Positions 42,812 through 44,205 of a DNA stretch of 64,000 bases are shown here, in pieces. The notes below the pieces were generated by a model. That model had not been told where the DNA came from and ran no database searches. It saw only the letters and a program-made list of their open reading frames with translations. Source of the stretch: Synechococcus sp. CC9616. Its GTDB lineage: Bacteria; Cyanobacteriota; Cyanobacteriia; PCC-6307; Cyanobiaceae. Made by a program: the position numbers and the translations under genes. The stretch is taken from the NCBI RefSeq assembly GCF_000515235.1, contig NZ_KI911558.1, forward strand, positions 1,773,466-1,837,465, read 5' to 3'. The first letter of the stretch is position 1, and the number at the start of each line of letters is the position of its first letter.

Positions 42812-43522
42812 ATGTCGCGAACCTACCGAAGGACCTCGACGGTGGCGGCCATCAGCCTGGGACTCGCCCTGGTGCTGCCCGGTGGAACAACGGCACGGGC
42901 ATTATTCGACAGCAAACCTCTGCAACAGCAAAGATTTGCTGTTCTTGCTCAGCCGATCGGGCAAAACGACTGGAAGCTGCTGGTGCTCGAGCAGATCAAG
43001 ACACGGCCGCTGTGCTGGACGCCAAGGTCAGATGGACTGATGGATCCGACGCTGAACACGTTCAACTTCAGCGGCATCTGCAGCCGTTATCTGGACAGCA
43101 ACGGGTACTCCCTTCGCAGCGGCGGGCAGGACCTCAACCTTCGGTTTCGCCTGCGCTTGAAACAGAGGGGCAATCGCTTGCACCTCCAGGCCATTGATCC
43201 TGATCAGTCCATGCCGATCACGGTGGGGACAGCCACCGTGCCCCGGCGCGATCGCAATGGCTTCGTCAAGATCGCGCTGGATTCTGGATGGCGCCTTGAG
43301 CGACGGACATACCAGGGCCGCACCCTGAGCCATGTGTACTTCGCGCATCCAGACCCCATCAATCGCCTGCTGGCCAAGGCCGACAACAGCAGTTCGGGGG
43401 GATTTTCACGTCTTGGAGCTCCTCAGGCTCCAGGTCGACCCAGTCGCAAACCCACAGCAACAAGCTCTCGGGTTGCAAGCAGTGGACCGATCAGGCTTGA
43501 CGTGATTCCGTATCGCCGCTGA
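42812..43522 (+). CDS. DUF3747 exported protein
   Basis: A 236-aa protein with a signal peptide ([20 protein letters not shown]). The DUF3747 pattern is clear: [20 protein letters not shown], then [36 protein letters not shown] and [12 protein letters not shown] low-complexity Ser/Pro/Arg-rich region (about 175-220) precedes the C-terminal [13 protein letters not shown]3747 is a cyanobacterial family of unknown function, probably periplasmic or outer-membrane associated. Divergent from rnhA by 51 bp. Confidence 0.85.
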
Positions 43523-43603
43523 GCCAAGCGATTGGCACAGTGACAGTCGCCAGAGCGACTTCATCGGGTGGCTGCTTCCATTTCTCAGGTCTAGTTTTTA
43601 ATT

Positions 43604-43701
43604 GTGTGAGGAGTGCTGACCGCCTCTTCAGGGTCGAAACAAGGACAGACTCCTGAATGCGTTCCATCCAGAAAACCCTGCCTTTGGCGGGGTTTTTTAT
43701 T
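43604..43701 (+). ncRNA. Candidate small RNA with hairpin and terminator
   Basis: The intergenic region 3' of the DUF3747 gene folds as a compact RNA. A hairpin TTCAGG-GTC(GAAACAAG)GAC-CCTGAA (43627-43657, with a 5-nt bulge) is followed by a strong terminator (43672-43701). A -10-like TTTAAT (43597-43602) precedes it. At its 5' end is GTGTGAGGAGT (43604-43614), the exact reverse complement of ACTCCTCACAC, the conserved unpaired core of the cyanobacterial sRNA Yfr1. The GAAACA in the loop is reminiscent of the Yfr2 family. It could instead be the 3' end of the DUF3747 mRNA. Confidence 0.4.
43672..43701 (+). terminator. Rho-independent terminator, plus strand
   Basis: AAAACCCTGCC (43672-43682) pairs with GGCGGGGTTTT (43686-43696), including one G-U, around a TTT loop, and is followed by TTATT. 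It ends transcripts coming from the DUF3747 gene or the candidate sRNA. Confidence 0.8.
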
Positions 43702-43713
43702 GGAAAGTGAAAA

Positions 43714-43745
43714 ATCAAAAAAAACGGCCTCCGTAGAGGCCGTTT
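43714..43745 (-). terminator. Rho-independent terminator of the rplJ-rplL operon, minus strand
   Basis: A perfect 10-bp stem AAACGGCCTC/GAGGCCGTTT (43722-43731 and 43736-43745) with a 4-nt loop. Read on the minus strand the stem runs into a stretch of T residues (TTTTTTTTGATTTT), a classic intrinsic terminator. It lies 65 bp after the rplL stop. Confidence 0.9.
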
Positions 43746-43809
43746 CAATGTCATCAGAGAAGGACTGAAAACCAGGCGTGACTGGATCGACGCAAGCCGA
43801 TCCAGGGGG

Positions 43810-44205
43810 TCACTTGATGGTGGCCTTGCCGCCTGCTTCCTCGATTTCCTTCTTCAGCGCTTCAGCATCGTCCTTGGAAATGGCTTCCTTGACCGGCTTG
43901 GGTGCCGCTTCAACGAGGGCCTTGGCATCGCCGAGGCCGAGGCCTGTGGCGTTGCGGACAACCTTGAGCACTTTGATCTTGGCTGCAGCATCGAAGCTTT
44001 CGAGGATGACGTCGAATTCAGACTTCTCCTCGGCAGCTTCGCCACCACCACCACCACCAGCAGCGCCGGGGGCAGCCATCACAACACCAGCAGATGCTGC
44101 GGCAGACACACCAAAAGCCTCTTCGATCTGCTTGACGAGCTCGGAAGCTTCAAGCAGGGAGAGAGATTTCAGCGATTCGAGAATTTCGTCGGTTTTAGCA
44201 GACAT
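43810..44205 (-). CDS. rplL: 50S ribosomal protein L7/L12
   Basis: Ribosomal stalk protein (131 aa) that recruits translational GTPases. An N-terminal dimerisation helix ([25 protein letters not shown]), an Ala/Gly hinge ([20 protein letters not shown]), and the conserved C-terminal domain ([41 protein letters not shown]) are all intact. It is preceded by rplJ with about 54 bp between them. Confidence 0.98.

Follow-up and report, generated by a model that had tools for sequence, protein, structure and literature searches.

A predicted Yfr2-family sRNA beside rplL in Synechococcus sp. CC9616 carries a 12-nt complement to the Yfr1 core

Between two genes of Synechococcus sp. CC9616 lies an exact complement of the unpaired core of the cyanobacterial sRNA Yfr1, which raises the question of whether this stretch marks a regulatory RNA, and if so of which kind. 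Within the window, that is, the whole 64,000-nt stretch of DNA analyzed here, a sequence-only reading had placed the 11-mer GTGTGAGGAGT at 43604-43614 (+). Our search found it there and nowhere else in the window, and when compared with the strain's own Yfr1 the match extends to 12 nt (43604-43615). Taken alone, the 11-mer is at most a mild surprise: it turned up in 3 of 100 shuffled windows, and the genome has 7 copies of the 10-mer GTGTGAGGAG versus 5 of its reversed control. As the 11-mer by itself is weak evidence, any claim about the site rests on its context.

That context points to a known RNA family. The Rfam model RF01701 (Cyano-1) matches positions 43600-43668 over its full model length, with 53 bits against a cut-off of 41, and is the sole gathering-level Rfam match within the window. 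The Yfr1 model (RF01116) has no match in the window, whose RNA holds the complement of ACUCCUCACAC. Cyano-1 matches in one of the genomes searched (G169) start at 346826(+), 654509(+), 383387(+) and 972178(-), while in Prochlorococcus MED4 yfr2 is given from 346828, yfr3 from 654511, yfr4 from 383389 and yfr5 as complement(972088..972176) (Axmann 2005, PMC1242208). Because all four coordinates agree at a constant offset of 2 nt, G169 is MED4 and the Cyano-1 model describes the Yfr2 family. Applied to the window, this offset predicts that the sRNA starts at 43602, two bases ahead of the anti-Yfr1 motif. Both the Yfr2-like identity and the position of the match at the 5' end of a predicted RNA, as proposed in the sequence-only reading, agree with this assignment. 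We conclude that the stretch very probably encodes a trans-acting sRNA of the Yfr2 (Cyano-1) family, the parts of which are collected in Table 1.

Table 1. Predicted parts of the sRNA locus and its neighbors, in positions of the window
Feature	Position	Strand	Basis
Yfr2-family sRNA, predicted	about 43602-43699	+	RF01701 match and 2-nt offset to mapped MED4 yfr2-yfr5
Yfr1-complementary 5' motif GTGTGAGGAGTG, unpaired, 12 nt	43604-43615	+	Complementarity, fold, conservation
Yfr2 hairpin (stem 43627-43635 / 43648-43657, bulge 43651)	43627-43657	+	Consensus fold, covariation
12-nt hairpin loop GAAACAAGGACA	43636-43647	+	Consensus fold, covariation
Rho-independent terminator	43670-43698	+	Fold; two-sided changes in 7/9 consensus pairs
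-10 box TAGTTT (consensus TANNNT)	43592-43597	+	Column conservation, 36 upstream sequences, several genera
Conserved upstream block, consensus GNCAGTTGNNAGAGCGNCC	43542-43560	+	Column conservation, 36 upstream sequences, several genera
rplL (ribosomal protein L7/L12), convergent neighbor	43810-44205	-	Pfam PF00542, PF16320
DUF3747 gene, upstream of sRNA	42812-43522	+	Pfam PF12565
Separate rplL terminator, hairpin and T run	43721-43746	-	Terminator scan

In the consensus fold of 41 distinct sequences, the 5' motif is unpaired; next comes a 9-bp stem, interrupted by a single bulge and capped by a 12-nt loop, and then the terminator. Paired cells in the hairpin and terminator amount to 95.9%; two-sided changes affect 11 of the 18 pairs, and the observed scores were reached by 0 of 500 shuffles. 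The GAAACAAG-loop hairpin and terminator of the earlier reading are thus confirmed by the fold, and both covary among relatives, the check that it had proposed for the hairpin. A simple terminator scan did not return the terminator on the + strand, which is backed by folding and covariation. The sole variation in the 5' motif TGTGAGGA is one A to G, and the loop, which is equally conserved, is invariant. The pattern used to gather the 41 sequences already demanded some of the 5' motif, and selection therefore accounts in part for its unvarying inner bases; tests free of that selection were made in 17 same-genus genomes and on the 3' side of rplL in ten genomes. Single-sequence folding favors pairing of part of the 5' motif with CTCTTC (-18.7 vs -15.3 kcal/mol for the first 70 nt), but this 5'-sequestering helix was rejected, as it has zero covarying pairs. 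A 51-aa ORF with a GTG start at 43613, spanning hairpin and terminator, was also discarded, because the spacing of hairpin and terminator among relatives shifts by non-multiples of three.

The likeness to described members of the family extends to several features. As in Yfr2-Yfr5 of MED4 and Yfr2a-c of Synechocystis 6803, the 5' end carries an unpaired motif of the TGTGAGGA type; a 12-nt loop containing GAAACA, a bulge at position -4, a terminator, a length of roughly 90 nt (predicted for the window RNA) and the presence of several copies per genome are further points in common. Yfr2a-c have been described with a loop of this size, a bulge at this position and an unpaired 5' end (PMC2662882). 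Around the loop, the window copy has GTCGAAACAAGGACAGAC instead of the GTGGAAACAAGGNCACAC of other Yfr2 copies. Yfr1, by comparison, is a pairing partner and not a homologue, its complementary motif sitting between two hairpins. The same holds for Yfr10 and Yfr10-like sRNAs, which are bound by Yfr2 and present the same ACUCCUCACAC motif as Yfr1 in a hairpin loop.

The partner is encoded in the same genome by a single Yfr1 copy (G000:C1:260669-260725, minus strand), whose core CACTCCTCACAC is exactly complementary over 12 nt to the window motif, the outcome of a pairing check that had been suggested from the sequence. RNAcofold pairs the Yfr1 core with 43604-43614 (11 bp) and keeps both Yfr1 hairpins. 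The net cofold gain is -16.7 kcal/mol for the window copy and -11.4 for the other Yfr2 sequence of the genome, which is complementary to Yfr1 over only 8 nt. Segments of the window have a mean of -5.9 kcal/mol (sd 3.4), and 10-11 of 1278 reach -16.7, one of them overlapping the sRNA. Cofold differences were used because RNAduplex energies were uninformative, the true pair scoring no better than shuffles. Since the Yfr1 core is invariant, two-sided covariation between Yfr1 and Yfr2 is not visible. For MED4 Yfr2, the pairing with Yfr1 proposed in 2008 requires a bulge and a mismatch (PMC2518516), unlike the uninterrupted pairing of the window copy.

There are two occurrences of the other Yfr2 sequence, separated by about 2.8 kb across the contig join, at L077:2196-2453 and L076:1371-1628 (G000:C1 near 2303 and near 2645377). 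Each lies in a 258-nt block, the two blocks being almost identical (99.6%), and a repeat of 63-66 nt is common to these blocks and both contig ends. The doubling may be either a local duplication or an effect of assembly ends.

Experiments on MED4 suggest what such an RNA might do. In pull-downs, MED4 Yfr2 recovers Yfr1 and Yfr10; it also restores expression of Yfr1-repressed GFP in an E. coli reporter and, when bound, is shielded by Yfr1 from RNase E cleavage (PMC6778093, 2019). By analogy, the best reading is that the window copy is transcribed and antagonizes Yfr1 as in MED4; of the roles first considered for the site, that of a sponge fits the pairing and reporter results for the family. 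Under such a mechanism the unpaired 5' end GUGUGAGGAGUG would pair over 12 bp with the unpaired Yfr1 core, and with Yfr10-like RNAs where these are present. Pairing would remove Yfr1 from its mRNA targets and could protect Yfr2 from RNase E, with the hairpin loop GAAACAAGGACA as a putative second conserved contact surface. The direction of control may be either of two, both compatible with the sequence: Yfr2 titrating Yfr1, or Yfr1 neutralizing Yfr2.

A related possibility is that mRNAs or protein are the main partners of this RNA in the genus, and that Yfr1 mainly serves to shut Yfr2 off. We take this seriously, while considering it rather unlikely. In its favor, the loop shows the same degree of conservation as the 5' motif, and MED4 Yfr2 enriches hundreds of targets and is shielded by Yfr1 from RNase E (PMC6778093). 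Against it stand the 12-nt match of the window copy, the retention of pairing by variants of the motif and the relief of Yfr1 repression by Yfr2 in the reporter.

The sRNA gene is flanked by the DUF3747 gene and the convergent rplL, and its start lies ~80 nt past the DUF3747 stop codon on the same strand, an arrangement that would also suit a 3' UTR element of the DUF3747 mRNA, processed or cis-acting. We regard this as very unlikely, given that the RNA is preceded by a -10 box conserved among 36 upstream sequences (first T 97%, A 100%, last T 94%), and that Synechocystis Yfr2a, likewise downstream of a same-strand gene, uses its own promoter (PMC2662882). Of the own promoter and ~80-95-nt transcript typical of the family, this box and the covarying terminator are what the sequence shows. 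The sRNA probably has its own promoter and terminator, and the window copy is presumably transcribed. The conserved block farther upstream (43542-43560) is probably a regulator site of the sRNA promoter, and this site is perhaps the published CGRE1.

The GNCAGTTGNNAGAGCGNCC block, which is conserved across genera, resembles a tRNA D arm. A tRNA remnant at this position is unsupported, an ARAGORN tRNA search of the window having been negative.

The neighborhood of rplL is itself conserved. At each same-genus locus fetched, rplL adjoins the sRNA. A check unselected for the motif covered the 3' side of rplL in ten genomes of nine genera and found the sRNA in eight; in the other two, MED4 and SS120, no sRNA lies on that side. 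The motif of the eight is the exact 12-nt form in four, 11 nt in one and GTGAGGGGTG in three. As the A to G change in GTGAGGGGTG swaps an A-U for a G-U pair with Yfr1, the ability to pair is largely kept despite sequence drift. In MIT 9313 (G104, identified by published Yfr1 coordinates), the sRNA beside rplL lies away from the single yfr2 gene listed in 2005. Whereas yfr2 genes have been described as having no fixed place (PMC1242208), the rplL-linked copy is, judged by synteny, an exception.

Position 3' of rplL also admits the reading that the stretch encodes no sRNA of its own and simply holds a bidirectional terminator for the rplKAJL operon. For that operon, Axmann 2005 lists an untested candidate, cluster 226 (MIT 9313 and WH 8102), described as a 'possible bi-directional terminator' (PMC1242208), and this candidate may cover the rplL-side sRNA. 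Yet conservation reaches ~70 nt beyond the + strand terminator on its 5' side, taking in the 12-nt unpaired motif, the invariant loop and the -10 box; Cyano-1 matches over its full length, and rplL owns a separate hairpin and T run on the minus strand. A terminator region alone is thus highly improbable.

Taking the locus as an independent sRNA gene, one could propose that the rplL-linked copy belongs to a Yfr2 lineage of its own, passed on vertically and specialized on Yfr1, against which it would retain a near-perfect 12-bp antidote in a constant position. The mobile copies, having 8-nt or mismatched complements and another loop flank, would have turned to other targets. We offer this as a doubtful speculation; such a division of labor would have escaped notice in MED4, because MED4 lacks the rplL-linked copy.

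A chance 11-nt match in an RNA unrelated to Yfr1, a caveat of the sequence-only reading, is hardly credible: shuffled windows do yield the 11-mer (3/100), but all same-genus genomes tested retain the match in synteny, the motif belongs to the Rfam consensus, and the interaction is published for the family (PMC6778093). All 17 same-genus genomes that are at least 80% complete contain both GTGTGAGGAGTG and GAAACAAGG; with the pattern reversed as a control, none of the genomes searched gave a match. Phage-borne Yfr2 was considered as well: 46 viral contigs match TGTGAGGA-gap-GAAACAAGG, none with the Yfr2 hairpin flank, and these matches are taken as chance.

Both the Yfr2 family and its pairing with Yfr1 are already published, and the window copy is a largely ordinary member. 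It adds two modest points, its constant position beside rplL and its perfect 12-nt complementarity to Yfr1, for which novelty is not claimed: we found no description of either in the literature covered, which omits Gierga 2009 and Lambrecht 2018, the papers likeliest to mention the locus. The useful point is that marine Synechococcus retains a Yfr2 gene, perfectly matched to Yfr1 over 12 nt, in a constant position where MED4, the source of the pairing work, has no copy. Some Synechococcus strains are transformable, whereas genetic tools for Prochlorococcus have been described as missing, and the antagonism is therefore open to genetic testing.

The partner motif can also be followed where Yfr1 is not detected. 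In 17 genomes of the taxonomic family without an Rfam Yfr1, searches under laxer filters were still negative, and ACTCCTCACAC is kept in all 17. Most copies of ACTCCTCACAC outside Yfr2 lie in a GGAC...GTCC hairpin loop or similar context, then a terminator, a setting of the kind described for Yfr10, SS120 included. Overall, most of these genomes carry the motif either in the loop of a Yfr10-like hairpin or in a divergent gene resembling Yfr1, and in two of the 17 (G137 and G073) there is no clear sRNA around ACTCCTCACAC. As the motif is kept, mostly in an sRNA-like context, it tends to persist even without a detectable Yfr1.

Six genomes of genus g30 without Rfam Yfr1 (L247, L250, L251, L257, L258 and L262) have a common GACTCGGCACTCCTCACACGAGGC, followed by a terminator; this element is likely a divergent Yfr1 or Yfr10 missed by the Rfam model. 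In two relatives (L050 and L051), a second ACTCCTCACAC lies just upstream of Yfr1 on the opposite strand, as the complement of the Yfr1 core.
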